DNA from: Loxodes magnus
Lineage: Eukaryota; Ciliophora; Karyorelictea; Loxodida; Loxodidae
DNA length: 64,000 nucleotides
Reading direction: 5' to 3'
Assembly: GCA_946699065.1 (NCBI GenBank)
Contig: CAMPDV010001512.1
Location: forward strand, 1-64,000
Below the pieces are notes generated by a model. That model saw only the letters and a program-made list of their open reading frames with translations, was not told where the DNA came from and did no database searches. How positions within the stretch are numbered: the stretch's first letter is position 1; each line of letters starts with the position of its first letter. Positions 1,297-64,000 of this stretch are shown here, piece by piece. The position numbers and the translations under genes were made by a program.

Positions 1297-2430
<1,134 letters not shown>

Positions 2431-6168: not shown

Positions 6169-8004
6169 TCATTTGCTATCTTTCTAAACATCACTCTAAA
6201 TTGTCATTCGTACAAATTTTTATTTAAGCCAATTTATTCTCTATACATTTACCTACGTTTCTCTAATATCTAAATTTTTAAGTCTTTTATAGAAAGGATA
6301 TTCTTATCCTTCTTAATCACAGTTTGGAAAACCTTCCTGAGAAACATTTCTCTATAATAATAAACTTAAAACTTTCAAATTTTTACAATTAGTTACTATT
6401 TGTATTACATCTTAATTGCTTAGTTTACTTCCATAAAAATCTAAGTCTTTTAATTTGTTTAGTTTAACTATTTCAACTATTCAATTTTCATCTAAGAATT
6501 AGCATTTTATTAATCTTACCCTTTCTAGTTATTAGCAATTTTAACTCATAGATTATAAAGCTTTGTTTTTCAGTTTTTTCATACCTCAAATAGATACTTT
6601 AGTTAGCTTTCTACAATTCTCAAAAATAAAACTTAGAGTTTTATTAGAAAGTTATCAAATATAATTTAGTGATATTTCTTCATAGTTTTATCCATAGTCT
6701 CCAATCTTCTTCAAAGCATTATTAGTAAGTTAAGGCAACAAAGAAAAATTAAGAGTCTTTAAATTAGGACAGTTTTACATTAGCGTTAGCAAGTTGTTAT
6801 CATTAAAATCAGAGCATCTATAAATATCTATATATTATAATTTTATATGTTACTTAGAAAATAATTCTTATATTACTTCTGCTTTAAAATTTTATAATTC
6901 CTAAATCTTTAAATGCCTAAGATTAAAATTTTTTAACTTCAGCATGAACTAATCAACTTATTATTCTATTTTATAAGAGTCAATTATAATTAAATTAGGA
7001 CATAAATCAATATATTTATCCATATTTTCATTAGAATTAATTTCTATTTCTTCTAATAAAGCTCCTTTTTATTTCAAATATTGTATTAAAATCTCTTTAT
7101 CAAGTAAAATACTAAATAATGTTAATGCCTTTAAATTTAAACCTGAACAATAATCTTGTAGCATTTTTCCTGTTATCTAAGTTAAGCTGTTGCCATAAAT
7201 TTCCAAGTATTATAAATGAACTAAATTTTATAAAAAACTTAAATTTTCTTCTTATAATTAATTAACTCTTATAACTAACTTTTTTAGATTTAAGCATTTT
7301 GATATGTATTCTTGAATAGTTCTATCTAAATTTGTTAATCCATATAAATGTATTTCTTATACTAGTTTATATCCCTTTTGATTTTAATTTATTTTTAACT
7401 ATAAACATTTTCTTATTTCTTGGAAAACTGTATCTGGTTAGTTTTGTCTATCTAATTGGTACGTATTAATATATAAAATTTTAGTATCAGATAACAAAAT
7501 TTGTTTTATAGTTCAGTTTAGCTTGCTTTAAACATAGTCATAATTACTTGAATATTCTTTTATTTCTAGGTTTTAAAATGAATACTTAAACTTATTAAGA
7601 TATTTATTAGCTTATTGTAATCTGCAGATATCTCTATTTTTAAGGAACTAACATAAGTATCTAAGAATATTAAAGTTTTAAAATAAATTATACTAACTAT
7701 TTTTAATCAATTTAGTGCTTTATTTTTCTTAATAAAGTTCTTCTTAGTTTAACTGTTCATGAAATATCTTTATTGGAAGAGTTATTTCTTAATCTTTTTA
7801 TTCTTCTATAGATATTTTTTAATTTTATAAGCTTAATTCCTATCCTTAGTCTTAAGTTAAATCGTTTTAGATTTAAGTTGCTATTTAAGTTCCTTATAGA
7901 GTAATATTAGACTCTTCTTATTATTGATTAGAAGAGGATTAAGAGTTAGAATTATCTAGTGTATAGTTTTAGTTACTAGTTGGCCAGTAACTCCTACTTT
8001 ACAT
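6169..8004 (-). CDS. F-box/leucine-rich-repeat protein 1
   Basis: One frame of 611 residues from ATG 8004 to the first of a cluster of UGA codons at 6171-6169. An S/N/Q-rich N-terminus is followed by an F-box-like segment (about residues 115-150, FNILRYLCQFLKNRDICRLQ) and then leucine-rich repeats with the NCPNLKTLNF and NCRKLTKVSI pattern. The likely role is a substrate adaptor for an SCF ubiquitin ligase, inferred from the fold. Four internal UGA codons sit where W fits (YIWQL, VSIWGM, DENWIVE and one in the linker); two W codons are UGG. It is paralogous to the genes at 15172 and 44419. It lies between repeats R1 and G1, and its ATG is about 100 bp from G1. No intron was needed. Confidence 0.85.
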
Positions 8005-12812: not shown

Positions 12813-13155
12813 TTAAAATCAATATAATAAATTTAAGTTTTTAAACGAAAAGAAACTTCCAATCAAATTAAATAAGATAAACAAAGCAAATAGCACAATA
12901 AATTATATATCTATAGATTTAAATATTGTAGTTACTTAATTTACTTGCTACATTTATTTAATATTCAACTAACAGCATTACTATTTTATTAGATTATATT
13001 AAGAATTTTAAGAACCAATAGATTTTTAAATTTTAGTTATATCAGATCATTCATTTATGGTATAAGCAAATTTATTATTTTTTAGCTCAAAATATATTAA
13101 AGTTTTAGTAAAAAGAAAATATAGATGTTAATTACGTAAAAATAAGGAATAAAAA

Positions 13156-14067: not shown

Positions 14068-14167
14068 ATGACCCTAATCCTTATAGTTAAAATTAATTAA
14101 TACATAAAAATATTTATTTGCAAATTAGGAATCAAAATTTAAATAAAAATTATAATTTAAAAGAAGG

Positions 14168-14450
14168 TGAAAATGAGTTTTACCTTCTGAACTAAACTTT
14201 TTGGTTTTATGGCTAGGAACAAGTTCCTTTCCTGTGGCTGAGAAACTCCTTGGTCAGAGTCATTTTTTGAAGGGAACGTTGTCTTCGAGATTATCCGCTC
14301 TTGGTAGGGGCTTGAAGACTGGTTGCTAGTAGCGATGGAGCTCCCTGGCAACTGTGTCTGGAACACAACAGGATATCCCCAGTATTCCTAAAAAAGAGAA
14401 CATCGGCTTGTATAACTGGAATGAAGTTTCTGGTTCCAAAATTATTAAAG
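14168..14450 (+). repeat. G-family repeat, copy 2
   Basis: Same orientation and sequence as the copy at 8109, with scattered substitutions and a divergent first 30 bp. A 69-residue frame on the minus strand is not kept in the other copies. Confidence 0.8.
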
Positions 14451-15171: not shown

Positions 15172-17412
15172 ATGAGCTCTAATACTAGCTTTTCCTGTAC
15201 CAAATGTAGCAAGCCATTGCAATAAGGGATAGAGAATCAAGGCAGTTTTATGGATAATATATGCTAAGACTGTCTTATGTTTGATACTCAATCGAAGTAG
15301 GAAGTTAAATATACTTAAGAAAGTTAAGACCAATAATATTAGGAAATTTAATAACTATAAAAGTAAGAAGAAGATATATAAGAAGCTAAATGATAAAGCA
15401 AGTAAGAAATAAAAAAATAATAAGCAAATAAGAAATTACAGCTAGAAATAGTAATTGCAAATCCTTCAAAAATACAGTAGAACTTTTGGAAAAATAAATA
15501 TATTCTAGATTAGATAACTTAGTATTTAGATGAAATAGAAATAGCTTAATTATAGTAGGTTAATAAATACTTCTATTGCTTTAATTATTACTTTTAGACA
15601 ATTAGAATATAATCTCTCTTTGAGGATTAATCTGAGGAATAAAATGAGTGATAATAAAAACTTGATTGATATTTTAATCAAATAGTAAAATCTGATGTTA
15701 GAGAAATATATCTAAATGTATACGGCTTTTCTCTAGAGATTTGCTAATATGTTTAGAACATGTTTGATTAGTCCATCTAGCAAAGAAAATAGAATTTAAA
15801 AAATCCATCTTAAAACTGGTAAGAATTGAAATAACTAGATGGCCGATTAGAGCATTAGCTTTACCTAGTTTATAAAATTTGTAAAGCTTAATAGAAATAA
15901 AATTATCTGAAATAAATTAATAAGAATCAGACTTATAATTCATTTAAGAGCTAAGAGTTATTGAGTTTGAATATCTACATATTACAGGCTAATTTTTATT
16001 GGATTACTGCTTAAAGCTTAACCTAGAAGTGGTAAAGTTGTAAAGCTAAAAGATAGAAAACTAGAGAATAATATAATATCTAGAATTAAAAGGAAAATAA
16101 GTTAAAGTAATTAAAATTAACTAAAATGAGCATATTAGTTAAATTTTAGATTACTGTCCTAATTTAGTCTAAATAGACTTATAGAAAAATTTAGATAAAG
16201 ATTACTAAATTATAGATAAAATAAAAAGATATGATCTTTAATGATTATCCATTAATATAACTAGATAATCAAGCATTATAGGAATTATTTTCTAGGGAAT
16301 ATCCTAAACTAGACTATATTAAAGTAATAAACTCTTCTAGCTTTAAAGTAGAAATATTCTAGCAAATTATTTAAAATGTTCCTAATATTAAAAAGATAAC
16401 TTGAATTTCCTTTTTAGGTATGATTAACGAATAGTTATAAAATAGTTCTTAGAGTAGTTAAATTATAGCTTAGGAGAAATTACTTACTAAGCTTGAGGAA
16501 TATATATTTGAAGGAAGTGAGTGAGTATGGATGTAGTTACTATTAAAAGCTCCTAATATAAAAAGATTAATTATAAATAGTTACTTTAGTATTGCTAAAG
16601 AGTTAGATAAGCAAAAATTGCTAGTTTACTAGTAATAGTCATATTTAATACCCTTTTAATTTAATAACCTAGAATTTATTAATTTTAATGGATCTGCATT
16701 AATAAGAGATGACATTATTCAACAACTCTTTTAAAAAGTTCCTAACTTAAAAATACTCAGAGTTTAAAATTTAGATCAGATAACCAACGAAACGCTGAAG
16801 TAAATAGGAATTTATTCAACTAGATTAGATGAGATATGTATAAGAAATTTATAGCAGATAACAGAAGAAACTATCAGCTTTATACTATAAAACTGCTCTA
16901 ATTTAAAGAAAATTTACATCTCACTAAATTAAAATGCTTTGAAGGAATAAAATGGATAAATATATTTAAATGCTACTTAAACTATCGAAACAACTGAGAC
17001 ATTTTTAAACAAGTAAACTTAATAAGAAGACTATACTTCTTTAGAAAGTGAGATAATAAAAAATAATTGAATAAAATAAATAATAAAACTAAATAGATTA
17101 GAAGTATTAAAACTTAAATAATGTAACTTAAGAAACTAAAATATAGCTTTAATAATAAAAAATTGTGATCAATTAAAAGAATTATATTTATAAAATAATA
17201 AAGATATTACTGAAGAAGGATTTCCTTTAGCAGATGAAAAAGGCTTATAATATCCTATTTGGAATAGCTTAAGAAAATTAAATTTAAGCAATTGCTCATT
17301 AATAAACACTTAATGATTAAAGTAAATAACCTTTAAGTTTAAGAAAATATACATTAAAATACAAAATTTAGAAGAAACTGAATCTGATGAGGAGTCAGAT
17401 CTGTAATAGTGA
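15172..17412 (+). CDS. F-box/leucine-rich-repeat protein 2, two tiny introns
   Basis: Exons 15172-15818, 15839-16166 and 16195-17412 join to 730 residues ending at UGA 17410-17412. The introns are 20 nt and 28 nt, both GT...AG; each restores alignment with the paralogue at 44419 (the first before SLQNLQSL, the second between CPNL and IKITKLQI). The N-terminus has a zinc-binding pair CTKC...CQDC (residues 9-33) and a Q/K-rich coil. Then come an F-box-like segment (ILDQITQYLDEIEIAQLQQV) and leucine-rich repeats to the end. About eight internal UGA codons fall at Trp positions (SEWVWM, NNWIKQ and others). Likely an SCF adaptor; the N-terminal zinc segment sets it apart from its paralogues. Confidence 0.85.
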
Positions 17413-21886: not shown

Positions 21887-23362
21887 ATGTAAGCGTTACC
21901 AAAATGCTTAATCTGCTTAGAAGATTACAACTTAACTAATGCTCTTCCAACTGTCTTACCTTGTGGACATATTTACTGTGGTTTGTGTTTGAATACTCAG
22001 TACTGATTATAAGGCATAATGTAATGTCCTATTTGTTAAAAAGGATTCCATATTAGATTTGAAGATTTATCTAAAGAAAGTGATTTGATAAGAATGATAT
22101 AAGAAAACTAATAATACATAATAAAGATTTAAGACGCTAGATAGAAATTAAAAGAGATAAGGAAGTAAATTATGCAAAAATCTAAAACCATTACAACCAA
22201 ACTATCTAACATTACTAATACTCTCATAATACCATATACTGATATCATCCCATACACATCAAACATTAACTAACATTTATCTACCTAAAATTATAACACT
22301 CAATAATTATCAAATCATTCAAATTCCCTATTTACTAATCACTAAAACGAACTAATATCAAATGTAACTCATCTATAAGCAATCTAAATATATTCCACAA
22401 TATAAGCAGCTTTAATTCAAAAGGCATCATAATTAAGTTAAAATGATATCACAAAAATAAGATAGAAACTATAATAGAATACAAAGTAAGAAAAATAAAA
22501 GATTATTAAGACTAATAAAGATAAAGCAAGCTAATAATAACAGTTTACATAATCAAACTATATTCACTTTTTTGATTGATAGATTTAAAAATTAAGTTTA
22601 TTTAATATTTAAACAGAGTAATTACGATAAATCTAAGTTTAAATTAGTATTCCTGTTAACAATAAAAGTATAGAATATTAAAATAAGCTATATTTAATTG
22701 GAGGATTTAACAAAAATTAAAATGAATTAATAGAAGAAACTTGATAGTTTGATTATGAAGCTAATGGTATAAAACTAAGTGATCTAAATGAGGGAAAATA
22801 TGATTTTGGAATAGCCTCTGCTTAAAAATATCTTTATGTGGTTGGAGGATTAACTAACAATAATCAATTGCTATAATCAGTCGAAAAGTTAAAGGTAGGA
22901 AACTAAAGTAAATGATAAAAATGTTCTTAATTTCCATTTTAAATAACAGGATAAACTTTAGTAGTAGATAAAGATGAATAAAATATTTATTCTTTTGGAG
23001 GGTTAAATTAGGAAGCATAAATTTTAAAAGATATATGAAAATATAACATATAGAATGATAGATGGAGTAAATATGATTAAAATCTTCCTGAAGCTGTTGT
23101 TTCTCCTATAGTTTCTTTAGAGCCTTTTGTCATAATTGGAGGTATGAAAAATTTATCTACGAAAGAATATTCGAGAAGAATATATAAAAGAAACAAAGAA
23201 TAATGACAATAAAGTTAAATTTTTAAAGATGTTATAGCTTTAACGGAGATGAAAATAAGAAATACATATGGATATGTTTTTGCTATAGAATAGAAAAGAT
23301 TTTCAATAATGAGGATTGATTTAGACAAATTGAACTATAGAAGTATTAAAAGCCATAACTGA
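21887..23362 (+). CDS. RING-finger kelch-repeat protein
   Basis: One frame of 491 residues, ATG 21887 to UGA 23360-23362. An N-terminal C3HC4 RING is clear: CLICLEDY, then CGHIYCGLC, then CPICQ (residues 7-60). A coiled, Q/N-rich middle is followed by four kelch-type repeats with GG doublets (LIGGF, VVGGL, SFGGL, IIGGM). Six UGA codons fall on expected tryptophans, including the kelch W in EETWQFD, SKWQKC and DIWKYNIQNDRW (the last W is UGG). RING proteins act as E3 ubiquitin ligases and kelch propellers bind substrates, so a ubiquitin-ligase role is likely but inferred. No intron needed. Confidence 0.88.
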
Positions 23363-27472: not shown

Positions 27473-27972
27473 AAATTTAATATTTATAATAAAAGCTTAA
27501 AGAACTAATTAGCTTGATTAATTATAAGTAAAAAAATTAATAACAGTAGTTTTTAAAGTAATTGCAACATTTTATTTATCATTTAAAGATTCTATTAGAA
27601 ATAAGGTTTTCTTATTAAGATTCTTTTGATTTAAATCACAAATAAATTATAATTATTAAATACAAAGTAAAGGTAATATAATAAGGATATAAATTCTTAG
27701 TTATAAAACTTTTGATATAATCATTTATTCTTTTATTTAAATGTCAAAGATATAAAATAAATTGCAAAAGCTTTGTATACTGGACTATTTAAAATCAATT
27801 TTATAGATGTCTAGATTTAAGGCAAAAAATAGAATTTTAAAATCGTTTTATTAATAATAGAGTATTTATAAGTAGCTTAATAAACAATTTAATTATTTAA
27901 TTGTATTGAAATTAAGTCAGGAAAAATATTTAGATTAGTTACTTTAATTTTTAAATTATTAAAGTTATAAAA
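27473..27972. other. Intergenic
   Basis: Nothing recognised. Confidence 0.4.
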
Positions 27973-28478
27973 ATGAAATTGAAAATTAAAGAAATACAAT
28001 TTACTAAAAGTATTTTTTAAGAAAGCTCTTAAGACAAAGAAATTAGACCCTTGGAAGGATCCCTATACTTGTATTTAAATACGAAATTCTGCCAAACTTA
28101 TGCTTCTAAAAATTGGTAAAAAAAATTTCATATGATTAAAGTTAAGGTAATTATTTAATATTTTAGATTAAGTTACGGCGGGACATTCGGATGAAGTTTA
28201 TGAGGTAGCTTTAACGAAAGATTAAAAATGAACTGTATCGGGAAGTGGCGATACAACGATACGCATATGGAATTTTCAGAATGGAAGCTGTACTAGAATT
28301 TTGACTGAACACTAGTATGGAGTTGGAGCGGTAGCTTTAACCAAGAACCAGAAATTAATTGTATCGGGAAGTTGAGATTGAACTATAAAAATCTGGGAGT
28401 TTCAGAATGGTCAGCTTATTCGAACTATTGAAGGGCATACAGGCGGTATATACAGTATTCAGTTAATTACTGATTCAA
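27973..28478 (+). pseudogene. WD40 gene fragment cut by a LINE
   Basis: A paralogue of the WD40 gene at 33613-34699. Exon 1 aligns (FTKSIF...YEILPNLC) but has one T fewer in a T-run, so its frame is broken. A 20-nt intron at 28147-28166 sits at the same place as the 22-nt intron of the intact gene. Two full WD repeats and the start of a third follow. Tryptophans in VSGSWDWTIKIW are UGA, UGA and UGG. Homology stops near 28478, where a minus-strand LINE begins, and I could not find the rest of the gene beyond the LINE. Confidence 0.8.
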
Positions 28479-30560
28479 GTTTTCTCTATAATTCTTTTTT
28501 GATAGAATTTTGTGCTAATTATATTAAGTGCAATGTCTTAATCTGTCAAAAAATAGTAAATTTTGCTAGCTTTTTTTTACCTGTATTTGTGATAAAAGTT
28601 GAGTCATCCTTGGGATCTAAGCATTATAGCTTAAAATCTCTCATTATGCCTAATAGATATTGACCAGCTAGGTTTAATTCGTTGGGTAAGAATTATGGAA
28701 TGTGCACATTAAGATCATCAAGTACTAATACTTTTAATCCATCATTCCTCACTCTATGCATAATTTATTGTAGTCCCTCATAGAAAGGAATAAGCTATTC
28801 GTGCTCAGTTGTTGTGGGTGTATATACGTTTATTAAGGCTAATTTATTGTTTAATCCTATAATTATTATTCTACCTCCTTAAAACACATCTGCTTAGTTA
28901 AATCTATCTACCTCTCATTCCTTAATTCTTTTCGTAATTTCTTCTTTTATATAAAAAACCACTCCTTCACTGTGCTTTGTTCCTGCCTTCAAGATTACTT
29001 TATAGCCAAATATTTATGGCATCTCTGCAATCTCATCTATAAATATTTCTTAAATAGCCATTATATCTGCTTGTTTATCCTATAAGAATTTATGCAGTAT
29101 TTCCTTATTTGTTTTTAACCCCTAATATTAGCTGTACCAATTTTTATTTTGTCTCAGATAATAGTATTTAATTCCTTTTATATTAGTGGTTCCTTTTCTT
29201 CGTTGTCTTCTAATTAGCTTTTTTATATATTTTTTGTATACTGAAGCCAAACTCTTCAAGCGTTTATGTTGTCTACTGAATCTGAGATTTTTTTTCTCGA
29301 TTTTTTCTGTTCTTACTATCATTGTATTTTTTTGGTAATTTTCCTTGCAATGAATCTTTGTCCTGATACATTGCTTTGCTAAGTTCATTATGTTCTAGCG
29401 GGCTCAGTTTTGTTCTGTCATTTTAGATTTATGATTCTTACAACATCCTAGGGTTACTCAAATCATGTTAGTTCAAGTTCTATCCATTTTTATAACCTCC
29501 TAAGCTTTTTATAATTACTGTATACGATGTGAATAAACTCAATTTTTTTCATATTACTCTTTAAATATCATACTTCCTTTTCATTTTAAATTTTTATATT
29601 CCTGTATTCTTAATCCTTAATTTATTATAAGGGGTTTATTTTTTGTTCAGTAACATTGTTTTTGTTCACGTTCGTGTTCTCATTTTAGAATTCTTCAGTT
29701 TTTTTATTATTTCTTCGATAGTTTCTTTTCTTCTGCATTATTTTGTACTATGGCCATTCAATTGACAATCTTAGCACTTTCACTTGATTGGATGGCTTAG
29801 TTTAGTCTTTATTCCAAAATAGTCAATTATTTCTGGGATTTTTTTAAGTCTTCCACTTTATGTATTTCTGAGTATGTGGTCATCTTTTCATTTAACATTT
29901 TTGTTCCTTCCCATGTTTGTATTATGTCTATTTAATTAAGCACCATTTTTGTAGTTTATTCTCTATTAAATTGAGGTTCATTTCCTTATCTAGATTTCAG
30001 TGTATTGGGTAATTCTTTAAGTTAAAGTATTGTTCCATATTTCTTTTTTCAATCAGTATTTTCTGAGTCTTGTATTACCACGCTCCCATGTTTACATATT
30101 ATTCCAGCTGCTCTGAGTTTGCAAAGAAGATTAAAATTATTCCATTTGGTAGCAGCTAGATTTTTGCTATATTTTCCTTGTGTGGTTCTCAAGTGTTTTA
30201 AAAATTATTTAATTGCTACGTCCCTTTCTATTTATTTCATCTAAAATTTTTATTATTTGTATTTTCTTTGTAGGTATTAATTGAAATAAGCCACTCCTAT
30301 TCCTTTTAGTTGTTACTCCTTATTCTGGCTACCTCCCTAAAGTCTATTCTTTATTTAAACAATTGGACTCTCCCAACATTTAAATGCTTAAATTTGTCCA
30401 GTTATTAATAAATATCGTAAATCCTAAAGCTCTTTAATACCTTTGCTTATATGTTTCAGTAATTCCCTACCCCAATATTCGGTATGTAGTAGGTGATTGA
30501 AAGACTACTGTTTTTGTTTCGAGCTTCCATTAAAATAAATAATATAAATAATTAAATAAT
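28479..30560 (-). mobile_element. LINE fragment: ORF1 and APE endonuclease
   Basis: ORF1 has an RRM-like part (IAKIQLLPNGIILIFFANSE) and an intact knuckle KCQDCQLNGHSTKQC (CX2CX4HX4C). The endonuclease starts KIGTANIRG, continues ADIMAIQEIFIDE, HSEGVVFYI and LINVYTP, and has LDDLNVH where GDFN is usual. The reverse transcriptase is absent, so the copy is 3'-truncated at the WD40 pseudogene. At least three frame changes. Same family as 19010-21690. Confidence 0.85.
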
Positions 30561-33612: not shown

Positions 33613-34699
33613 TCAACTCGAAACTCTCCATTTTCTTATCGTCTTGTCATCATCTCCCGATACCAACCATCTATTATCAACACTCAATGCTATAGAATAT
33701 ATATACGATGTATGCCCTTAAAAAGTCTATATACACTCACCCTTATCAAAGTTCCATATCTTGATTGTTTAATCGATAGAACCAGAAAATATAACACTTG
33801 AATCAACACTTAACTGAATACTTGATATACCATCCGTATGACCTTAAAGAGTACGAATACACTAACCAGAAGAGAAGTCCCATATCTTAATAGTACTGTC
33901 GCCAGAACCCGATATTATATACCTATTATCCTTAGACACTATCACCGATGAAACTCCGCCTGAATGCCCAGTAAGAGTTCTCACAAGTTGACCAGTCTAG
34001 AATTCCCAAATCTTTATACTTTTATCTCCAGATCCCGATATAATTTATCTAGAGTCATAGGAGATTACTACCGAGTTAACTGTAGAAGTATGCCCCGTTA
34101 AAGTTCTTTGGAGATCACCATTGTGGAAATTTCAGATCTTTATAGTAGTGTCATCAGATTCCGATACAATATAGCTAGAGTCATAGGAGATTACATTCGA
34201 GTTAACATATTCAGTATGTCCTGATAAAGTTCTTATGAGAGAACCAGTCTATAAGTTTCAAATCTTGATGGTTTGATCAAAAGAAGCTGAAACAATATAG
34301 TTAGAGCCTGGGGAGATTACTACCGATCTAACTCAATCAGTATGTCCAGTTAAAGTTCTTAAAAGAACACCTGTCTGGAAATTTCAGATCTTTATCGAAT
34401 TTTCAGGAGCTCCAGAACTTGATACAATTCAATTCAGGTCACTTGATATGGATACCGACCAAACAGGTGAAGTGTGACCAGTAATGACTTAGTCTAAAAA
34501 ATATTAAAGAAATACCTTTACTTTGGTCATAGCTGATCTTATTTATAAGCTTTTAGTAGCATAAGTTGGGCAGAATTTCATACTTAAAATGAAGTAGAGA
34601 TATTTTCCCTAGTATGTGGCTTCTCGCTCTTAGGAGTTTTCTTAAAAAAATACTTTTAGTAAATTGCTTTTCTTTTTTCTCCATTTATTTTTTCTCCAT
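33613..34699 (-). CDS. Seven-repeat WD40 protein, one 22-nt intron
   Basis: Exons 34699-34516 and 34493-33613 give 354 residues, ending at UGA 33615-33613. The 22-nt GT...AG intron lies just before the propeller. Exon 1 encodes a short basic leader (MEKKQMEKKEKQFTKSIF). Then come seven WD repeats, each with GH near the start and IW (KW in the last) at the end, enough for a closed seven-blade propeller. Five tryptophans are UGA, including three of the diagnostic IKIW residues, and six are UGG. This is the clearest proof of the code. WD propellers are scaffolds; the partner is unknown. The start could also be the second Met, five codons in. Confidence 0.93.
34494..34515 (-). other. 22-nt spliceosomal intron
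   Basis: On the minus strand it starts GTATTTC and ends TTTTTTAG. Its removal joins the leader to the first WD repeat in frame, and a 20-nt counterpart lies at the same place in the paralogue (28147-28166). Confidence 0.85.
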
Positions 34700-35957
34700 T
34701 TTAATTTTTATAACTTCAATAACTATTTAATTAAAATAACTCAATAAATTTTACTGACTCAATTTCAATACAATTAAACAATTTAATTATTTATTAAGCA
34801 TACTTATAAACATCTAATTTCTAAAACATTGATTTTTCTATTTTTGTCTTAAAACAAGATAGATATTAAACTAATACATACTTTTACAATTTTAATTATT
34901 TTATATCTTTTTACTTTTAAATAAAAGGATAAATTATTATTTCAAAAGTTTTATAACGAAGAATTTATATCCCTATTATAATAACTTTCATATGCATTTA
35001 TTAATTACAACTTATTTATGCTTTAAATCAAAGACTCTTAATAAGAAAACCTTATTTCTTTATAGACCCTTTTAAATGAGAATAATTGCCATTTTTTTAA
35101 GACCATTGCTATTAATTATTGTTTTTCACTTACATTTAATAAAAAAATGATTTCTTTAAGCTTTTTACTAATTAAAAAAAGTAAATAAAATAAGTTTCTT
35201 ATTAATTAGTTTGAATAAATATTAAAAAACATCAAATTATTTAAAAAAGCATTTTAGAATATATAAGATAAACTCTTTTAATTACCCACTTTCTTACTAC
35301 TATTTAATTAAAGCTTTTTATTTATAAAGGTCTCTCTTATAATAATAAACTAATATAATTAATTTTAATACTGATTCTAAAGATATTATATGTAATAAAT
35401 AGAAGTAGTAGAAAGTAAAGATTTAAACTAACTAGAAATGGTGTATCACTATTTTATCTTACAATTATTAATAGTAATATTTAATTATATGATTAAAATA
35501 AGCTTTAATATGTTTAATTATGTCTATTAAATACTTAATATTTAATCCTTTTACTTTATTAGTTATTAATTAATTTCTCTTTAATTTAGATATTAGATTA
35601 GTTATAATAAATACATTTAGATAGCTTTCTCTTTTATAGCAAACTAATATTAATTATTTATGTTATTTTTGTAATTATAATTTCTAATTAATAATAGCTA
35701 AATTATTCTAGATTACTTAAAGATACTTAATTCTATTATTCTATACAAATCTATATTATATTGCTAACACTTTAATACTCTCTTTCTTAAAATTAGTTGT
35801 TTGCTATTAAGAAAGTAATAAGCTTTTAAGAAAGCATATTTTTAATATGTTCTATTATTATTTTCTGAATTAATAGTAAACTTAACATAATATGTTTCTT
35901 TGTAGCATGAGATAATATAAGTATTAGATTAGCTAATATAAGTTATTTAAAACTAAA
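34700..35957. other. AT-rich region
   Basis: Nothing recognised. Confidence 0.4.
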
Positions 35958-41519: not shown

Positions 41520-42405
41520 AGGATAAATTAAGTTAAGCAATTTTCGAGGATTTTCACCTCATCATGCTGGACACCAGATTGCTCCAGTGTTAAAAATAAA
41601 GTTTTAGATGTCTCTACTCCTCTCTCCTCCCATTACTCTTGTTATTTCCGGATCTAGCCTTATTTCTAATTAAATTTTTTCTTGTAAATGTATCCTTATT
41701 CATTTAAGTATAATCTTTCTCTTATTTGTCTCTACTACATTTGTTTTTTCTTCCTCTACTGTGCTTGTATGGTTCTTTATTTATTCCAGTACTAAGTCTT
41801 GAAATTTTGGAATTCCTTGCCGTGTCTTCTTTAGTGTTCTGTCGAATTGCAGTAGTAACATTTCTTCACTACTTTTTGGAGTTTAACCTTAGTCTTCCTA
41901 TTGGTCTCTTCAATCATCATTGGATCTCCCCTTTGTTCATCTAATTTCTTTTCTAGTATTTCCAGTCTAATACTCAGATCAGATTGTTTCTGAAGCTAAT
42001 TTTAGGATTAGCTACTCTGGTCTTAAGATATGTTTCAGAAAGCGCTTAGTTCTCTTTCTTAGGATATAACTCTGGATTTTATTCCTTCCGCTAGGTTGAG
42101 TTTTTCCATCAGTTTCTCATTGTCCTTTCTCAGTTTCCTAACCTCTTCCTGGAGGTTTAGTACCACTTTGATGAGCTGTTCCATGCTCATCTGGCCAGAA
42201 GGATTGAACTTTGAGACCTCCTGGTGCAGAGCAGACTTCATCTGCTTTCTGGGCTTCTCTTCTGAGGATGGAGTTATCTCATGTGTTGTCTTCTGAGCTT
42301 GTTTCTGTTTCTCTTCAGGTTGTTAGAATTAAGAAAAAGGTTAGGGTTAAGGGTAATAAGACTATCCAAGATTGGCCTCAGGTTTCCTCTCCAACTTTTT
42401 AGAAG
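41520..42405 (-). mobile_element. X-family copy
   Basis: Minus-strand frame with a coiled coil (residues after VLNLQEEVRKLRKDNEKLM), DPMMIEE (family motif), a knuckle KCYYCNSTEHQRRHG, a Q-rich tail and GYIYKKKF. Two hairpins stand at the 3' end, followed by an ATT-type tail. It is close kin to the copy at 53395-54130. It touches the 5' end of the cathepsin pseudogene and may have removed or displaced that gene's start. Confidence 0.75.
41546..41589 (-). repeat. Conserved 3' hairpin pair of X family
   Basis: On the minus strand CACTGGA-GCAA-TCTGGTG (41589-41572) forms a 7-bp stem with a GNRA loop, then GAGG-TGAAAAT-CCTC (41560-41546) forms a second. The same pair, with different stem bases, stands at 53409-53455. 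Confidence 0.75.
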
Positions 42406-42414
42406 AGATATAGC

Positions 42415-43275
42415 AAAGCTACAATATTTTCCATGATTGTTATTACTGGATTAAAGTCTAGAACTAGATGAACTTGATTAAAAAGTTCGCAGTTAACCAT
42501 TTCGCTGATTTGACTAACGAAGAATTCTGAAAGACTTGCTTAGGATACAAGGATACTTAAACAAGGCATAGAACTACATATATGAATATGTATAAAATGT
42601 TGCTGATTCTCTTGATTGGGAATTGAAGGGAGTTTTAACATCTGTCAAAGATTAAAACCAATGAGAAAGTTGCTATGCTTTCAGTGATGTAGGAAGTTTG
42701 GAAGGAGCTTACTTCCAAAAGACTGGACACAATTGGAATCCTTCTCTGAATAAGAACTAGTTGACTGCTCTAATTCATTTTACAACCAAGGATGCAATGG
42801 TGGATGGCTGGACTCTGCCTTCCAATATTGACAATAGAACAGTGAAGAGACTGAATCAGATTATCCATACACTGGTGTAGATGGAAGCTGTAAATATGAT
42901 TCATCCAAGACTATTATCGGAATAGCAAACTTTGTAGAAGTTCTCTCTAATGAAGTTGCTTTTAAAAATGCAGTAAATGGACATATTATATCAGTTGAAG
43001 TTGATGTTTCAAATAGGTCATTCTATTCTTGAGACATTTATAATGGATAATGCTCATCTTCACCTAACCATTGTGTAAATCTTGTTAATTATGGTTCTGA
43101 AAATGGACAAGACTACTTGAGAATCAATAATTCGTGGGTACATAATGAGGAGAGAAAGGGTATTATAGATTGAAGAGAGCCGTTTCAAGCAACTCGGTTG
43201 GACAATGTAGAGTTGCCTCAACTGATGAAGTCAATGAGTATGTAGAATAAATTGTTGCTTTTTCAATTAAATAAT
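42415..43275 (+). pseudogene. Cathepsin-L-like cysteine protease pseudogene
   Basis: A truncated I29 propeptide (VNHFADLTNEEF), the active-site cysteine region (LTSVKDQ...SCYAFSDVGSLEGAYF), SEQELVDCSNSFYNQGCNGG, the histidine region SPNHCVNLVNYG and the asparagine region INNSW occur in order but in three frames, so at least two frameshifts are present. The disulphide cysteine before the active site is a UGA codon and the residue after the catalytic Cys is Y. The signal peptide and most of the propeptide are missing where the X element begins. A dead host gene. Confidence 0.85.
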
Positions 43276-44418: not shown

Positions 44419-46674
44419 ATGGGAGCTTGTTGTGTTAATAACAAAAAGCTAACTCGCTAGAAGGAATTAACCTAGATATATCGTACTGAACATCAGTAAA
44501 ACTAGGCTACGTTTTCATCTCAACCTTAAAAGGATAAAGGATTAGGACGAAACGAAGAAGCAAAGCTTCAAAATAGTTTTTAAGTAGAACATCAAAGAAT
44601 AGAATTGAAGCTAGATATAAACTAAGATTTCAATCAGTAACAAAACACACTGGGAAACTAAGAAGATATTATTGGAATAAATAAAATTTTAGTTTAAGTA
44701 TAAAACTAATAAGTGAATGAGAGCTAAATATAAAAAGTGTAGAAGAATTAAAATATTATAAATTACATTATTTAGTTCTTAGAAAATAAAGACATTGCTA
44801 TTCTGCAATAAGTCAATAGACATTTCAACTAATATAGGTACTTTTATAGGTCTCTAGAAATTGGTAGTTATTAAGAAGATAAGTAAATTACCAAAAGCTA
44901 AGTTAAATGAACATTAAAGTAAATATCTAAATCTGATGTAGAGATTTTAACAATAAGCACTTATAAATTTCCTGAAAGATTGAAAAATCTTATTTCTGAT
45001 ATATTGGTAGTTAGTATCTAATAAAGACTGAAATCTTTAAGAAACAATTAATAACTAAAAATTAAAGATTTGGATTTAGATAGAATAAACTTAAATAATA
45101 ACTTATGCTTTACTATTTCTCATTTTAGCTAGCTAAGGGTCTTAAGAATACTTGAAGATTTAAATGATTAATCTTTATGGTTTTTACAATAATTACCTAA
45201 GTTAGAATTAATTAATTTTCGAAAAGCTGAATAATTAACGGGATAATTCTTGCTAGATTATTGCTAAAACTAGAATTTGAAAAGCCTAAATTTATAAAGT
45301 ACTAAATTAGAATATGAAAAGATAAAACTTTTTCTATAAGTAAAAGGAAAAAATCTACAAGACATTAACATTCACTCTACCTTTCATATATAAAGTATAA
45401 TAAAATTTTGTCCTAATTTAATTACTATTACACTTATAAAACTTGAAATATTAAATAAATGATTAAATAAATTTGGGGGTTCTTAACTATAAAATTTAGA
45501 TATAGAATGTAAAGATACTTCAGTGTAAGAAACTTAAAAATTCTTTTATAGACAAAACAGTTTATAAACTATTAGGATTAATAATCTAAAATTTTATAAT
45601 TCCTATTGATTTATTCTTTTAGTTTGTAGATCTAAAAATTTGAAAGATCTCAGCTTATACAATTTAGAAATTTAAGAGAACGAATAAGAAAATGTATAAA
45701 TATAAGAAAAAGAATAGCAGCTAATGAATAATATTAACTTCTAGATTTAGGAATAATTTAAGTTATAGTAATTATACTTATCTGGAAATGCATATATAAG
45801 TAGTCAATTTATCAAGTTGCTCCTATATAACTCTCCCTTCTTAGTATCAATATCATTTTATGAAGTCACTTTTATAGATGATTGACATTTATAGTAATCC
45901 AGCTTAGCTTAGTGAATTTAAGCAGTAGAATAAGATTTAAACTCTTAAAAGTTACTTTAACTTGAGACTGCTAGATTTTATAGATGCAATAATTTAAGAG
46001 ATTACATTTTATAACTGATATTTATAAACTCTCCTAATCTAAAGAAATTGGAACTTTAAAAATAAGATAATATTTAAGATTAGACACTTCATTAAATAGG
46101 AATCTATAATAAGAACATTGAATATTTATAATTATAGCAACTTTATTAACTAAAACCTTAAACTATTAATTTTATATTACAAAATTGCTAGAAATTAAAA
46201 GAAATTGAACTTAGTTAAATGGAAGGATTATAAAAAGAGACTTTCAAGATATTAAATACTTACTGCTAATAAATACAAAGAATTAAGCTTATTAGTTGTT
46301 AAATAAACCAAAAAAATTGCATTAGTGAAATAGTAAAAATATTAACTTTAAAAGAACTATAGCTAAATTCTTGCAATTTAGGTAACGAAGATGTTATTTA
46401 AATAATAAAAAACTGTAACTAGCTTGAATACTTAAACTTAAATAACAATCACGAAATAAACTAAGAAGCATTTCCTATATAAGATGAATAAGGATTTTAA
46501 TATTTAATTTGGAATAGTTTAAAAAAATTAAATTTATCTGGTTGCTATAAATTAGAAGAAGAATATATCGTTAAGTTAAGCCAAAAATTAAAAAAAATAA
46601 TAATTGAATATGACAATTCTAAGTAGTTAAACGAAATAGAAGAAATGAATTTAGAATAGGAAGACTTTAGTTGA
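44419..46674 (+). CDS. F-box/leucine-rich-repeat protein 3
   Basis: One frame of 751 residues, ATG 44419 to UGA 46672-46674, no intron. The start MGACCV is a good N-myristoylation plus palmitoylation signal, so membrane attachment is likely. A Q-rich linker leads to an F-box-like segment (NIINYIIQFLENKDIAIL, about residues 110-130) and then leucine-rich repeats through LKKLNLSGCYKLEE. Five UGA codons read as Trp (VKWTLKQ, DDWHLQ, AQWIQ and others), two W are UGG. Likely a membrane-tethered SCF-type adaptor. Paralogous to the genes at 6169 and 15172, with shared blocks QFLLDYC and CPNLI. Confidence 0.88.
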
Positions 46675-48423: not shown

Positions 48424-48720
48424 ACTAAAAGAGTTTTTGGACTGCAACTTCTTGCAGTTTAACGACCTCAACACTCCCTTCATGGGATAACGGGGATATC
48501 CTGTTGCTTTCGAAAAGCAGCTGCCAGGGAGCTCCATGCTATGGGCAGCCAGGCTTCAAGCCCCTACCAGGAGTGGATAATCAAGAGGAAGGCGTTCCCT
48601 TGCAAAGGTTGACTTTGACCAGGGACTTTCTCAGCGACAGGAAAGGAACTTGTTCCTAGCCATAAAACCAGAAAGTATGATTCAGAAGGTCAATCTCTGC
48701 TCCCACTATCTTTTTAATTA
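48424..48720 (-). repeat. G-family repeat, copy 4
   Basis: Reverse complement of the copies at 8109, 14168 and 50223, more diverged. Next to it, 35 bp on, is R copy 2, also reversed. Confidence 0.8.
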
Positions 48721-48754
48721 TGAGTGATAAATAATAAATAAATAAATAAATTTG

Positions 48755-49243
48755 ATTATAGAGCGCGTAGCACTCTCATTGGTGCGCAGCTCTTTAAAAA
48801 AAAATGTTTCATACTGACAAGAATGTTTGTTACTGATAAAATTATCAGATACTGATAAGCCTTGTTCAATACTGGTATAATTATTCATTACTGATAAAAA
48901 TGTTCAATACTGATATAATTTTAGAATAATCGTAATCTTTAATACTTGCTGGAGGTCCAAAGACATGGCAGGATTGTGTCTCATTGCATCACCAAAGCAG
49001 AGGGCGACATGTGTCAATTATGGGTACTTAAATTCCCCACCTCTGATGAAGCTCGTAATATTATTTCTTTTTAGTTCCAGAATTAAAAATAAACGAAGCC
49101 AAGCCAGTGTCGAAGGTCTAAGAATCTTATGTCTCGAGGTCAAACCAAAGCAGAGGAAGACATAAAGTCGATTATGGGTACTTAACTTCCCCAACCTCTG
49201 ATGAAGATGACCTTGTTGTTCACCTTCGAACAACTATGGCGGC
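48755..49243 (-). repeat. R-family repeat, copy 2
   Basis: Reverse complement of 5608-5938. The TACTGATAA minisatellite of about six 19-20 bp units is at 48805-48920. It also has an internal duplication: the block CAAAGCAGAGG...CCTCTGATGAAG occurs at about 48993-49050 and again at about 49147-49206. The two short frames here are by-products of the repeat. Confidence 0.8.
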
Positions 49244-50222
49244 TTTTTTTGATAGTAATATTTATTTAATAAAGTATTCTAATTACTAGATTTATATTCT
49301 TTCTCTTTTTAGTTTTATTTATAAATTTTTCATATTACATAGGAATAAATAGCTTAAGAAAGCTTTGATATTTTTAAATATTTAAAGATAGTTTAATTAC
49401 CATTCTCAAGTTTAGCTTTAATTACATTTTTAATTTTTACTATATATTTATCCAAATAGTTTTTGTGTTAAGCTTATAGTTTTGTGATTATTTAATTTTA
49501 AACTTTTTTGCAAGTTTTAAGATATTATAGTCTTAAAATTTTGATTTTTCTATATTTTTTAATTTAACTAAATTTAATTTTTGAAATTATATTTAGGCAC
49601 AAACCATAAACCTGTTTTGAAGTACCTATTTAAATGAATGTTATTGAACTTTTTTACTTTTGGTGTAAGTTTAATAATTATAAGTAATCTTAATATTAAA
49701 ATAAATGAATCCTTAATTTAATAGATATAGATTATTACATATATATTATTTCTATTCTATTATTAATCTAACTTTTTATTAATATCAACTAAAGGATTTA
49801 ATGTCTGTCTATTTATAAATAAAGAAAATGTATATAAAGGTTCCTTTGTTGCTTTAGTTCATATTTTATTAATTTTTATTTAATAAGCAAAGGCATTATT
49901 TAAATTAATTTTATAGCTATAATAATTAAAGCATTTAAGATATCAATAATTAAACTTTAGTTAATTTCATTAGTTGGTTAAAAGTAAAGTTAGTTGTATA
50001 ATTATTAATTGCTCTATTAAATAAGATAAGCTTCATTTAATTTATATACAGCTTTATCTTTATTTTATAGAAAAATTTCAGATTATTAAATTAATTTTAA
50101 GTATATTTGTTCACATTAAACTTTTGATTGCTTTCAATTAGAAATTCTTCAAATTACAGCATAAATTTATTATTTTATAATTTGCTTTTATTTTTCATAT
50201 TTTGGATTTAATCTAAATAATT
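49244..50222. other. AT-rich spacer
   Basis: Nothing recognised. Confidence 0.4.
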
Positions 50223-50530
50223 GAAAAGATGATGGGAGCTGAGAATGACCTTCGTGACAACACTTTCTGGTTTTATGGCTAGGAACAAGTTCCTTTCCTG
50301 TCGCTAAGAAAGTTCCTGGTCAGAGTCATTTTCTGAAGGGAACGCTGTCTTTGAGATTATCCGCTCTTGGTAGGGGCTTGAAGCCTGGCTGCTCATAGCG
50401 ATGGAGCTCCCTAGCAGCTATGCCTGGAGCACAAAAGGATATCCCCGTTATTTCATAAAAAGAGAACGTCGGGTCGTGCAATCGGAAAGGAGTTTTCGGT
50501 CCAAAAACTTTTTTAGTTGAAATTAATTAA
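50223..50530 (+). repeat. G-family repeat, copy 3
   Basis: Nearly identical to the copy at 8109-8414, including the flanking TAATTGAAAAGATG start, so these two are probably the youngest pair. Confidence 0.85.
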
Positions 50531-52996: not shown

Positions 52997-53394
52997 GTAA
53001 ATACAAAATTAAATGCAAGGAAGAAGTAAAAATATTAAATAAATTTGAATCTTAGTTGAAACAAATCTTCAAGCTACACTCCTTTATAGCAATAATAACA
53101 ACATATAATCATCATATAATAAAGCTCTAATTCAATAATTATCTTACCCAGGGATATTATAACTCATTGTAATCTTAAATAGAAACTAAGACAAGAGATT
53201 AAGAAAGAAAGTTTAATTTAATTCAAAACTTAATAATAAAGAAATATAATAGTAAACCAATTACCTACTTATTGAATATATATAAATTAAAAAAAGGCTT
53301 TGAACTATTAGAGAAACAATTTCTAAGAATAATTGAAATACATAATATAAAAATTTAATACTAGTTATATACAAATACAAATACAAAATTAAGT
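52997..53394. other. Intergenic
   Basis: Faint continuation of similarity to sequence A up to about 53060, then nothing. Confidence 0.35.
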
Positions 53395-54130
53395 GTTTGG
53401 CATTCTTGGAGGTATTTCAACCTCTTTCCCGCCAGCCTCTAGATTGCTCTAGAGGCTTAATATAAAAGTCTGAAAATATCTACAACTCTTCTCCTTACCA
53501 TGCATGTTGTCCTTTAATTCTTCTTTCAACTAGATGCTAGATGTCTTTTTTCTTGTAAATTTCCCTAAATTTATTTCAGTATAATCTTTCTCTTTCTCTT
53601 GATAGCTTTAATTGCTATTGTTTCTTCCTTTTTTTCTCCAACTTCTTCTAATAGTTTCAATATTCTTACTTGAAATTGAGAAATTTCTAGTGTCTTTTCC
53701 ACAGATGCTTTTGAGAATTACAGTAATAAAGTGTTTTTACTTGTAGTTTAGGTTTAAATCTTGAGTTATTTTCACCTTCAATTATCATTGGATCATTCCT
53801 TTATTCTTTCAATTCCATTTAAAGCTGCAACTTGTACTGATTTTCTTCTATTTTTTCTAATTTGCTGATCAGTTCTTTCTGCTTCTATTGTTAGTTTAGA
53901 GATTAACCGCTTTAGTCTTGTGATATATTATAAAATGCGTTAAGGTCTCTTTCTTAGGTCATGAGTTTCGATTTTATTTCCTCTGCAAGTTCAAGTTTTT
54001 CCATTAGCTTCTTATTGTCTTTCTTCAACTTTTTGACCTCTTCCTGGAGATTCTAGCACCATTTTAATCAACTAATCATAGCTTTTTTACTATTATGTAG
54101 TGAGATTCGAGACTTCCAAGCGCATAATAT
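53395..54130 (-). mobile_element. X-family copy
   Basis: Minus-strand frame with a coil (NLQEEVKKLKKDNKKLMEKL), NDPMIIEGE, a knuckle remnant YYCNSQKHLWKRH, the YWN/Q-rich tail and IYKKKD. It pairs with the copy at 41520 in sequence and in its two 3' hairpins. The first knuckle cysteine is lost, and the last ligand position is His. Confidence 0.75.
53409..53455 (-). repeat. Conserved 3' hairpin pair of X family
   Basis: On the minus strand CCTCTAGAGCAATCTAGAGG (53455-53436) is a perfect 8-bp stem with a GCAA loop. GAGGT-TGAAAT-ACCTC (53424-53409) follows. The first stem differs in sequence from that at 41572-41589 but keeps pairing and loop. Confidence 0.8.
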
Positions 54131-54753
54131 TCTTAGCCTATTTCCTATAATCTAATATTAAGCTTTATCAAGTGGGAAAAAAAAGTAGCAAAAGGGATAA
54201 TAATTCAACGTCTGAATCCTTAATATCTGCAAAGAAAATAAGGAAGGATAATTAGTTGGTTATAAGGAGAAGAAAATAGAGACAAGGAAGTATTAGAAGA
54301 GATAAGTAGATAAAAGGGTAAATAGTGAGAGTATGTTTGTTTATATTGTACAGAATAAATTTGATATATTGCTTATTATATTTCAAATTCTTAGTCATCT
54401 TTGCTTATTAATATTATAAATTAAAACTTTTAAATGTTTTTTAAATGAAATAGTAATAAGAAAAAGCTTTTAAATATTTGGATACTTATTATTAAAAATT
54501 TATCAAAGGTTAGCTTAGTTTTCAAAATTGTAATTATAAAGTTTATTTTTTTACATTTATTTTGTGAGAAATTCATTTAGATTTGATAATAATTTAATGT
54601 TTGAAAATTAGACTCTCTTGAAGTTTAATTATACTTATATAAAAATTAATTATTTAGCATTTCATTAATGTCATAAACAGATAATAAAGATAAAATTTAA
54701 AATTGATTGCTATTGAAGTATTTATTTATATTATAATATTTTAAAATTAAATT
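54131..54753. other. AT-rich spacer
   Basis: Nothing recognised, although the LINE frame to its right stays free of UGA into this region. Confidence 0.35.
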
Positions 54754-60291: not shown

Positions 60292-63200
60292 TCAGTTAAA
60301 GAAAATACTTTATTTAATTTTAAGCATAAAAGTTTAAGTTTCATAGCATGACTAACTCTTCTTCTTCCTTTATCGTATATCTGATCTCCACTACTGAATT
60401 CTAAGTTTCAAGATTTTGTTCTACTTATTCTTATTATACAGTTTATCTAAATAAATAGCTTACTTTGTTTATTGAAGCTTTTAGAATATATTTTGAGATT
60501 CTGTATTTTGTATTGCTTTTTATGCAAATACTGGATCTTCTTGCTTATTGGTATCTTAACCACTTCGATAAAAAAATATTTAGTTTGGGATAGTATCAGC
60601 TGAGGTATCTTGAGGTACACTTTCATAGCTTGCAAATTAATTTTACTATTGCAGTCTTAATTTTTATTTCTAAAGATGACTTTCTAGCATTTTAACTTAT
60701 ACTCCGCATTTATAAGCGAATCTAAAGAGTAAAATTTTATCGGGAGTATCCCATGTAAGCATAACTTAAAACTTATATTTTCCTATAAACTTTCCTAGCA
60801 CTAGAATTAATAAATCTCCAGCCACCAATAAACTAAGCAAAATAATATTCAATTTTTAATCTTCTACTATCTCTACCATATGTACACATACCATAGTCCA
60901 ACTTACCAAGCTCAGTCCTATTCCATTCCACCAATTAAGAAACTTATCATTCCAAGGTCTAATTATCAAATTAAGAATTGTAAATATGCACATTATTAGA
61001 ATGTATAAATGTCCATATCACTCTCTTTTCCAGTGCTTCATACAACTGCATCAACAACTCAGTATTATCTAAGTCAAACTCTAAAACAGTATTCAGTTAG
61101 GCTTTTATTTAATGTTTAAGGAATCATGGAATATATCCTATCAATGAGGCATGGATAAAATACCAAATGGGATAAAAATAAACTAGCTAATCAGTGCTAG
61201 TGCATAATAAATGCAGTGCCTATGTGACCAGCATTTTAGGGTACAGTCCATCTCTGTAAAACTCTCATCTTTATCAATAAAATCATCAAAATCTTTGTCT
61301 CTACCATAAAGGCATTTCAAAGGATCCATTAGAAGTATAGTAAGTGGAACGAAAAGTAAATTTCCTATTAAAGGAAGTACTATAATAGAGATTTTTCCCA
61401 GTTTACGAAGTATATTTAGTCTGCAAAAGACCTCAAAACCACATAAGAAAGATATTAAAAATATACTTCAAGAAAAACAAACACAAAATGAAATAATCAA
61501 AATAACTCAATAAGCACTTGAATATTTGTTAATTTGGGAGAAATCAAAAATGAAATAATCCTTTACGATTTGAACTTAGTCTCCTAACAAATGATCTATG
61601 TCAGGTCCTAAAGCTAAAAATTGTAAAATTTGAAAAGCCGAAAAGAATATGAATAACTCATCCATCATAGTGGCTTCTGAGGCTACTTAGATTTATTCAT
61701 ACTTTCTTTTTCTTCATATTCACATTCCTCAAAGAGTAATAAAGAACACCATTGTGGCAAAGATACATATATACAAGATAAAAATTTTTTATCCTTTCTA
61801 GTATTAAAGAACTCTCCTCTCTGAAAAAGGACAGTTTTTATATTACTAGAAACTATCTGAAGGTGTATGTGATGTATTATCATTTCAAATAAGTCCATCA
61901 CCGTTAATTTTTCAGATTATAGAGCAAGTTAGGCAAAACTCTTCTCCTGAGATAATTTAAGGTAAAGTTAGATTTCTACTTAAAGTAGAGTCAATTTAAA
62001 AGTTATTTAAATCTCTATAATTTAGCTTTTTTTAAAACTTAACTTTCCCAGAGCAACTTATGAACTATACATTTCTTATAGTTTTCATCAAAGTAAATGG
62101 ATTAGTGTAATCATCTCCTTAGCTAAGAATTTCTTTTATTCCATAGGCAACTATAAGGGGTTACTCAAATAAATAGCATTCTTAATCAACTTCAGGTCTA
62201 CATTTTTTATCGTAGTCAAGCATTTCTTGCCCTAATTCTCCAACTCATCTTGGAATAGTTATAAATTAAGAGCCATGCAGAGTATATTTTATATCCTCTA
62301 AATTATCAACATTTGGAACTTTAACAAAAATTAGGGAAGTGGGAATCATATGAATGTAATTTACATCACCAGGCCGAAAGCTAAGATAAATCAATTACTA
62401 TCCCACAATCGATAAAGATGTCCCTCCTCCTATACAAATTACAACTCGAATCTCATTTTCCATAAAATCTCTAGCAACTTTCTTTGCCATTTCTTTCCTA
62501 CTTTCAATAGTTGTGTTGAAAAGTGGGAAAAAATTAATTTGATTCACTAATTTTACTCCATTTTTGTCACATCAGGCCTTCGTTATATTGTATTATTGTT
62601 CATTTTTTGAATCACTATCTTCATAATAAAGCCCTATTTGTTTTCATTTTTTCCTCTAAATGATTTAGGTTATTACAATGGTTCTAGAATACTAATCCTA
62701 GGCATTGGCTAAAAAGAGTGGAGAGCTTACAGTGTTTTCTAGTTACTTGATAGCAACTGAAGAAAGAAAGGGAAGATTATAACCAAGATATTGGTTATTA
62801 ACTAGATAAGTAGCATAGATAAAATATTTGGCTTATGAAATGATGTGAATGATTCCTATTTCAGCTTTCTTTTGCATGAAAACCGATGAAATTAAAGTTG
62901 TGTTAGGAAACGTACTACCATAACTAAAAGGATTTGCTACTATTTAATAATTTTCTAGTACATTTGTTTGCTCATTCGCATATTTAACTCCACAAGGAAC
63001 TTATTTTAAATGGTTTATTAGTTAAGTAGAAACACTTTCTTAAATTATTTCTCCTCCTAATCCCGTTGCATAACTAATTTCAATGTTAATTTAGTTGGAA
63101 GGAGGATTTGAACTTGATGAAGGTCAAATTATAGGATGATTTTCTCAATATGTTCTCTAAATTATTGTAGCTACCTTCACTAGGTTAAAGTTTTATGTGT

Positions 63201-64000
63201 TGATTATTTGATACTTAGACTTTATATTATTATTCTCGAACAAAAAGGATGAAAAGTTAAGAAATTACTCTAAGATTCTTTCGCTGCTATTTAAGTTTTA
63301 GTCTATAAGCTCTAGAAGCTTTGATAAAAACAGCCACTCAAAATGTTCAAAACTTTATGGGATTCCTTCTTATGGAGTTAAAGCTATCAATCCGTTCTCC
63401 ATAAATTTAAGATTCTCATTTCCCTATTACCGAAGAAAGGAAGAGGTTTCTAATCCTAAAATTCAAGCAAATCCTTTAGTTAGTTTAAGTTTCTAAGCTT
63501 CAGCAAGGATAAATTAAGTTAAACAGTTGTTGGTATTTAAAATGTTAATGGGAATTCCTATGCTTTTTAAAGTCTTGAATATGTAACTTCTAACTTCCTC
63601 TTAATATCTTATAGTACATAAATCTGGCTTCTACATTATAGGAGAGGGAATGGTAATTGTTCCTTTCGTTATATCAGCTTTTATTAAATTTTCAATAGTG
63701 AAATAGAATCTTAAATCTTATTAGTAAATCGCACCCACGTTTCAGAAATCTCAGTGGCGTAGAAATGTTTTGAAAGCTTCGCTTTCTGATTGATATGAAG
63801 GTACTATATAAAATGAATTCTGGAATATTTTAGCTTGAGTTTAGTCTTTCTATCTCCAAAGAATTAGCAAAAGCAAGTTTTCTCTACTTAAAGTTTTCTG
63901 AATTAAGGAAGATAAAAGTTAGTTAAAGGAAATATCAGCAACTATGCTTATTTTCCTTTATTATACCTCAGTCTTAAGGTTTTGAATAGAAACTATATCT
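60292..64000 (-). CDS. Tandem ANF-receptor/periplasmic-binding domains plus 7-8 membrane helices (partial)
   Basis: Exons 64000-61164, 61137-61044 and 61024-60292 (introns 26 and 19 nt) give over 1220 residues, open at the right edge. The first ligand-binding lobe pair is seen in GIPINILNTNNCLTQFILAE and GFAWILGLET; the second in SPLFLANAQ, RTIVITQIIQRKKWKQIGLY and VVICIGGG. A short Cys-containing linker (FCLTCS) leads to seven or eight hydrophobic helices from FILYICIFATMVFFITLWG to ILLSLLVAGDLLILVLGKF, then a polar cytoplasmic tail ending at UGA 60294-60292. The layout is like class C GPCRs, but with two binding modules. Ligand unknown; placed in the surface membrane. The second intron is the less certain one. 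UGA reads as Trp in KKWKQIG and elsewhere. Confidence 0.8.

Follow-up and report, generated by a model that had tools for sequence, protein, structure and literature searches.

The window analysed here, a stretch of DNA 64,000 nt long, is with a probability of about 0.9 karyorelict nuclear DNA, most likely from Loxodes or a close relative, that uses NCBI translation table 27: UAA and UAG are read as glutamine, and UGA is read both as tryptophan and as stop. The choice of table decides how the DNA has to be translated: with table 11 and ATG starts, a single open reading frame of at least 100 codons is found in the window, and with table 27 at least seven genes can be read through. The ambiguous UGA code is already known. 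For Condylostoma, PMC4967479 demonstrated stop/sense ambiguity with ribosome profiling and mass spectrometry, and an ambiguous UGA code is described for Loxodes in PMC11441545; the window adds a worked example. The most striking figure is UGA's share of the tryptophan codons. In seven gene regions, with gene models based on homology, 41 of 66 tryptophan codons are UGA, which is 41 of 3759 codons overall (1.09%), compared with a UGA usage of 0.120% of codons given in PMC4967479 for the karyorelict Parduczia sp.

Internal UGA codons and the reading of UAA and UAG

The clearest evidence for tryptophan comes from a WD40-repeat gene with seven repeats on the minus strand (33613..34699), which starts with an ATG at 34699. 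The ATG and the first repeat lie in different frames because a 22-nt GT..AG intron intervenes (34494..34515, minus strand). Its removal restores the frame and leaves a coding sequence of 1065 nt that closes at a TGA (33615-33613). This intron was absent from the first-pass annotation of the window. The 11 tryptophan codons of the gene comprise 6 TGG and 5 TGA codons, the latter with first bases at 34431, 34386, 34335, 34260 and 34134, and three of these five encode the characteristic tryptophan of a repeat. The coding sequence and the alignments confirm the earlier statement that five of eleven tryptophans are UGA, three repeat tryptophans among them, in a gene that also ends at UGA.

We masked TGA, TAA and TAG in the WD40 exon and aligned it to prokaryotic loci, retaining the best 80 of 112 confirmed loci. 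Relatives carry tryptophan at 34386 in 65 of 71 alignments, at 34260 in 78 of 79 and at 34134 in 75 of 80. The four repeat sites encoded by TGG behave in the same way (79/80, 78/80, 78/79 and 71/71, again among the best 80 of 112). The remaining two TGAs fall in variable columns: at 34431 the commonest residue is threonine (16 of 64) and tryptophan is outside the six commonest, and at 34335 tryptophan occurs in 8 of 78 alignments. Pooled over all five TGA columns, the log-odds are 12.8 bits for tryptophan and 1.3 bits for tyrosine, the next residue. Only 7 of 287 columns have more than 50% tryptophan in relatives, three encoded by TGA and four by TGG; the chance of at least three of five TGAs landing on those seven columns is 8.8e-5. 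The solved structure 2ymu covers three of the masked TGAs, two of which stand opposite tryptophan and one opposite serine.

Pfam scans in which TGA was read in turn as 10 of the 20 residues lean towards tryptophan across genes, with mixed results. The WD40 model scores 242.5 with tryptophan, 236.9 with tyrosine and 233.3 with phenylalanine, and the other seven residues give 221.1-226.8. Among the 11 WD40-type models listed, tryptophan is best in six, in two of which it is the sole residue above the cut; tyrosine exceeds it in the other five by 0.2-22.6 bits, the largest margin being in WDR3_2nd (224.3 versus 201.7).

The RING-kelch gene (21887..23362, plus strand) has six internal TGAs. With the same 10 residues, tryptophan gives the highest score for Kelch_4 (57.6; tyrosine, next, 52.2), Kelch_1 (54.5; tyrosine, next, 48.9), Kelch_6 (50.8; next residue 45.2) and RING_2 (33.9; arginine, next, 32.6). 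It ties with glycine for RING_5 and is exceeded by arginine in the KLHDC2 kelch model (61 versus 55.6), and zf-C3HC4 passed the cut only with TGA read as R, S, Q or K. Among the structure alignments shown for this gene, none places a masked TGA opposite tryptophan; the residues seen there are glutamate, alanine and methionine. A receptor-like gene with an ANF_receptor domain and a hydrophobic C-terminal part (60292..64000, minus strand, cut by the window end) has 19 internal TGAs, and the hydrophobic stretch after the ANF domain is rich in TGA and TGG tryptophan codons. The ANF_receptor model does not discriminate between residues (phenylalanine 47.7, tryptophan 46.4, tyrosine 45.6), and with TGA masked the receptor matched none of the solved structures at E values up to 0.01. 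As the kelch results are mixed and the receptor domain is indecisive, the case for tryptophan rests mainly on the WD40 columns.

Three paralogous genes with leucine-rich repeats (LRR) complete the set with internal TGAs. Paralog A (16120..17412, plus) and paralog B (45199..46674, plus) have four each and paralog C (6169..7500, minus) has three; their 5' ends are not fixed. The first-pass annotation called these three genes F-box genes. We do not retain that label: what Pfam matches is solely an F-box family's LRR model (in one scan 2 of 37 tiles, with E as low as 0.00014; in a second scan 1 of 37 tiles, E 7.1e-06), and those two match lists contain no F-box domain. The three proteins are 29-35% identical and align collinearly in frame over 382-400 codons. 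Of the 10 alignment columns with a TGA, none has a TGG partner, and one column has TGA twice and cysteine once. Second codon positions have changed least (0.36-0.40), compared with 0.58-0.60 at third positions.

This codon-position pattern bears on whether the internal TGAs could be inactivating TGG-to-TGA mutations in pseudogenes of an organism with the ordinary ciliate code (table 6), where UGA has no meaning other than stop. Dead genes would not be expected to stay collinear in frame with second positions changed least. The WD40, RING-kelch, receptor-like and LRR genes, with 3-19 TGAs each, are readable over hundreds of codons, and the WD40 TGAs fall on tryptophan columns. Three of the 41 internal TGAs in 3759 codons lie on conserved tryptophans. 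Some observations agree with table 6: a papain-like fragment and a second WD40 copy (see below) are pseudogenes, and actin, which is conserved more strongly than any other gene here, lacks internal TGAs. We nevertheless consider table 6 highly improbable, and the long readable frames, the LRR pattern and the TGAs on WD40 tryptophan columns led us to reject the reading of all these genes as pseudogenes.

A cysteine reading of UGA, as in Euplotes, or a variable reading, is the least credible of the alternatives. TGA read as cysteine scores below tryptophan for WD40 (221.4 versus 242.5), Kelch_4 (48.7 versus 57.6), RING_2 (27.3 versus 33.9) and the receptor (38.5 versus 46.4), and on these scores cysteine was rejected. 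It scores above tryptophan in WDR3_2nd (205.6 versus 201.7), and it is LRR paralog B that has the cysteine opposite the shared TGA column. Judged by eye against the known motifs, two of the three gag-like fragments also have a TGA at a zinc-knuckle cysteine, and the papain-like fragment has one near its cysteine, but these cases sit in decayed sequences, and the TGAs at the expected cysteines of the two knuckles are probably a product of decay. Taken together, the comparisons with relatives support UGA as tryptophan inside genes.

For UAA and UAG, the best reading of these alignments is glutamine, with small margins. When TAA and TAG in actin were read as 10 residues, glutamine scored 472.2, lysine 469.9 (a margin of 2.3 bits) and glutamate 467.0, with the other seven lower. 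In the WD40 columns the best residue is likewise glutamine for TAA (5.3; lysine 4.6) and for TAG (7.5; arginine 5.4). The seven gene regions contain 278 TAR and 66 CAR codons. The earlier wording that these codons are always glutamine therefore stands as to the residue that fits best in actin and WD40, but "always" exceeds the data.

UGA at gene ends

All seven gene models close at TGA. Two of these ends, those of actin and WD40, are without a nearby UAA or UAG alternative. The actin gene (1297..2430, plus strand) has no internal TGA, and it aligns with solved actins up to F375, the final residue of the chain, in the C-terminal HRKCF; the next codon is TGA (2428-2430). In the WD40 gene the terminal TGA lies a few codons past the last repeat, and the nearest UAA and UAG upstream of it stand 35 and 38 codons away, within conserved repeats. 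Neither firm end is at UAA or UAG. The actin C-terminus and the WD40 end thus support UGA as the stop at gene ends.

Actin was not among the genes used in the first-pass annotation. Its four tryptophan codons are all TGG, whereas five of the six remaining gene regions have more TGA than TGG; UGA is possibly avoided in highly expressed genes. An actin query found no relative in viral_contigs.

The other five ends are less certain, since in each model the sequence that separates the TGA from the last conserved stretch contains UAA or UAG codons. The RING-kelch gene (TGA at 23360) and the receptor-like gene (TGA at 60294) were closed at the first TGA past the coding stretch, and homology fixes neither end. 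The three LRR paralogs end at TGAs within a few codons of one another, with UAG or UAA 1-5 codons earlier: paralog A ends at a TGA at 17410, repeated at 17413, with UAG one codon and UAA two codons before it; paralog B ends at the TGA at 46672 and paralog C at that at 6171, each with a UAG five codons before. The earlier claim that the RING-kelch, receptor and three paralogous genes share the pattern of the WD40 gene thus fares well for the internal TGAs (6, 19, 4, 4 and 3) with a TGA at the likely end, and less well for the ends, which are not as secure as that of WD40.

The UAA and UAG codons in these five of seven models are also what one would expect if the window came from a Condylostoma-like heterotrich with table 28, in which each of the three stop codons can also be a sense codon and which, according to PMC4967479, has the same W/Q reading (UGA as tryptophan, UAA and UAG as glutamine). 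We regard table 28 as very unlikely: the two firm ends are both TGA, and the introns of the window are 20 and 22 nt long, not 15-16 nt as given for heterotrichs in PMC11441545.

Base composition changes at the terminal TGAs. In the 60 nt on either side of these seven codons, G+C averages 0.295 before and 0.200 after; for the 41 internal TGAs the two means are 0.278 and 0.267 (permutation p 0.003). The receptor end has no such fall (0.20 before, 0.28 after).

We counted codons ahead of the terminal TGAs. The last 30 codons contain no TGA against 2.2 expected (P 0.11, not significant), and a TGA-free run is favoured here by the choice of the first TGA past the coding signal to close each model. 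TAA occurs 6 times against 11.4 expected (P 0.07), or 3 times against 10.1 (P 0.01) when the receptor is left out; TAG occurs 10 times against 4.1 expected and TGG 4 times against 1.2. In the last 20 codons, P is 0.21 for TGA, and TAA occurs 4 times against 7.5 expected (P 0.13). In the six genes that have internal TGAs, the last lies 32-253 codons ahead of the terminal one. This distance fits the model of PMC4967479 and PMC11441545, in which a tryptophan tRNA and the release factor compete and closeness to the poly(A) tail decides. At UGA codons distant from the tail the tRNA would prevail; near the tail, with a 3' UTR that is short and AU-rich, the release factor would win, probably helped by the poly(A)-binding protein. 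The cell would separate the two meanings by avoiding UGA in the final codons ahead of the stop.

Pointers to the organism group

The first-pass annotation took the code to identify karyorelicts. The W/Q reading alone is insufficient for this, because Condylostoma and probably Amoebophrya sp. Kv share it, but intron length, the codons before the stop and the content of LINE-type sequences do point to the group. The introns, pre-stop codons and retroelement domains are each, on their own, a modest pointer to Loxodes. The two introns (22 and 20 nt) occupy one homologous site and thus represent a single independent position; their lengths are within the 16-25 nt of most Loxodes introns and differ from the 15-16 nt of heterotrichs. 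In L. magnus the mean is 19.3 and the mode 17 (PMC11441545). According to the legend of Fig. 3C in the same paper, coding UGA and UAA are depleted before the stop in L. magnus and UAG is not; the TAA and TAG counts of the window run in the same direction. The window also has an RVT_1 match (LINE-type reverse transcriptase) and a weak match to Exo_endo_phos_2 (E 0.0017). According to PMC11441545, L. magnus has about 100 times as many of these two domains as the ciliate that comes next.

As described in PMC11441545, L. magnus resembles the window in reading UAR as glutamine and UGA as tryptophan and stop, in its short introns and many RVT_1 and Exo_endo_phos_2 domains, in the scarcity of UAA but not UAG before the stop (in the window a tendency), and in coding sequences richer in G+C than the 3' UTR. 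The window differs in that coding G+C varies between genes from 0.21 to 0.37 and that the depletion of UGA before the stop is not significant. Apart from its much lower UGA usage, Parduczia sp. is similar according to PMC4967479, with UAR as glutamine, UGA as tryptophan and stop, and UGA at all inspected ends. Loxodes spp. transcriptomes share UAR as glutamine and UGA as stop; the part of PMC6935857 concerned gives UGA for karyorelicts only as a stop. Condylostoma magnum (table 28) is alike in its W/Q reading and in context-dependent termination, and differs in ending genes also at UAA and UAG and in a UGA usage of 0.042% (PMC4967479).

In Amoebophrya sp. ex Karlodinium veneficum (sp. Kv), all three stops are read in frame, and PMC12005148 considers a W/Q reading likely and the species more AT-rich than its relatives. 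A parasitic dinoflagellate of this kind, with all three stops as sense codons, would account for the internal codons of the window. Its genes are built differently. The mean MAKER gene is given as 2063 bp for 331 residues in 2.6 exons, so its introns must be far longer than 20-22 nt, and its classified retroelements are nearly all of the LTR type (PMC12005148), unlike the RVT_1 and weak Exo_endo_phos_2 matches found here. We rate this origin as low as table 6. No rRNA gene was detected in the window at Rfam's threshold, and the tRNAs found in it are His, Ala, Lys and Leu, with none for Trp.

With karyorelict DNA and table 27 as the preferred reading, a broader picture can be sketched that we think unlikely: a karyorelict in which UGA is the majority tryptophan codon and still the stop, with dual decoding over much of the proteome, a UGA-free actin, and glutamine and tryptophan codons near gene ends tending to UAG and UGG, which would keep the stop readable.

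Dead copies, repeats and retroelement fragments

Table 27 was said to turn apparent junk into intact genes. This holds for the WD40, RING-kelch, receptor-like and LRR genes, which become readable, but not for all of the junk, because the papain-like fragment and the second WD40 copy are dead. The second WD40 copy (27960..28490, plus strand) is an inverted, truncated pseudogene with about 2.5 repeats (by eye) and a one-base gap in exon 1. It has a 20-nt GT..AG intron (28147..28166, plus) at the same site as the intron of the intact gene. Two of its TGAs stand where the intact gene has glycine and lysine, and a third coincides, by eye, with one of the intact gene's TGAs in a variable column. The papain-like cysteine protease pseudogene (42500..43260, plus) is spread over frames, and two TGAs in its aligned piece stand opposite isoleucine and serine of other proteases.

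The regions upstream of the two WD40 copies (27625-28018 and 34645-35032) are duplicated in inverted orientation, with 75-85% complementarity between individual pieces and 76% identity over an alignment of 646 columns. Another inverted repeat, of 253 nt and 94% complementary, has its arms 43 kb apart (5642-5894 and 48799-49051). The AT-rich window also contains a GC-rich (~0.5) repeat of 300 nt at 8103-8402, 14151-14450 and 50217-50516, the latter two copies being 80% and 95% identical to the first, and an inverted related copy at about 48474-48740. This repeat, which may be a short interspersed element, matched no Rfam family at E values up to 1. Fragments of reverse-transcriptase and gag-like zinc-knuckle sequences lie on the minus strand at 53300-56699, 41667-42152 and 10056-10685, and on the plus strand at 3500-4150 and 13100-14000.
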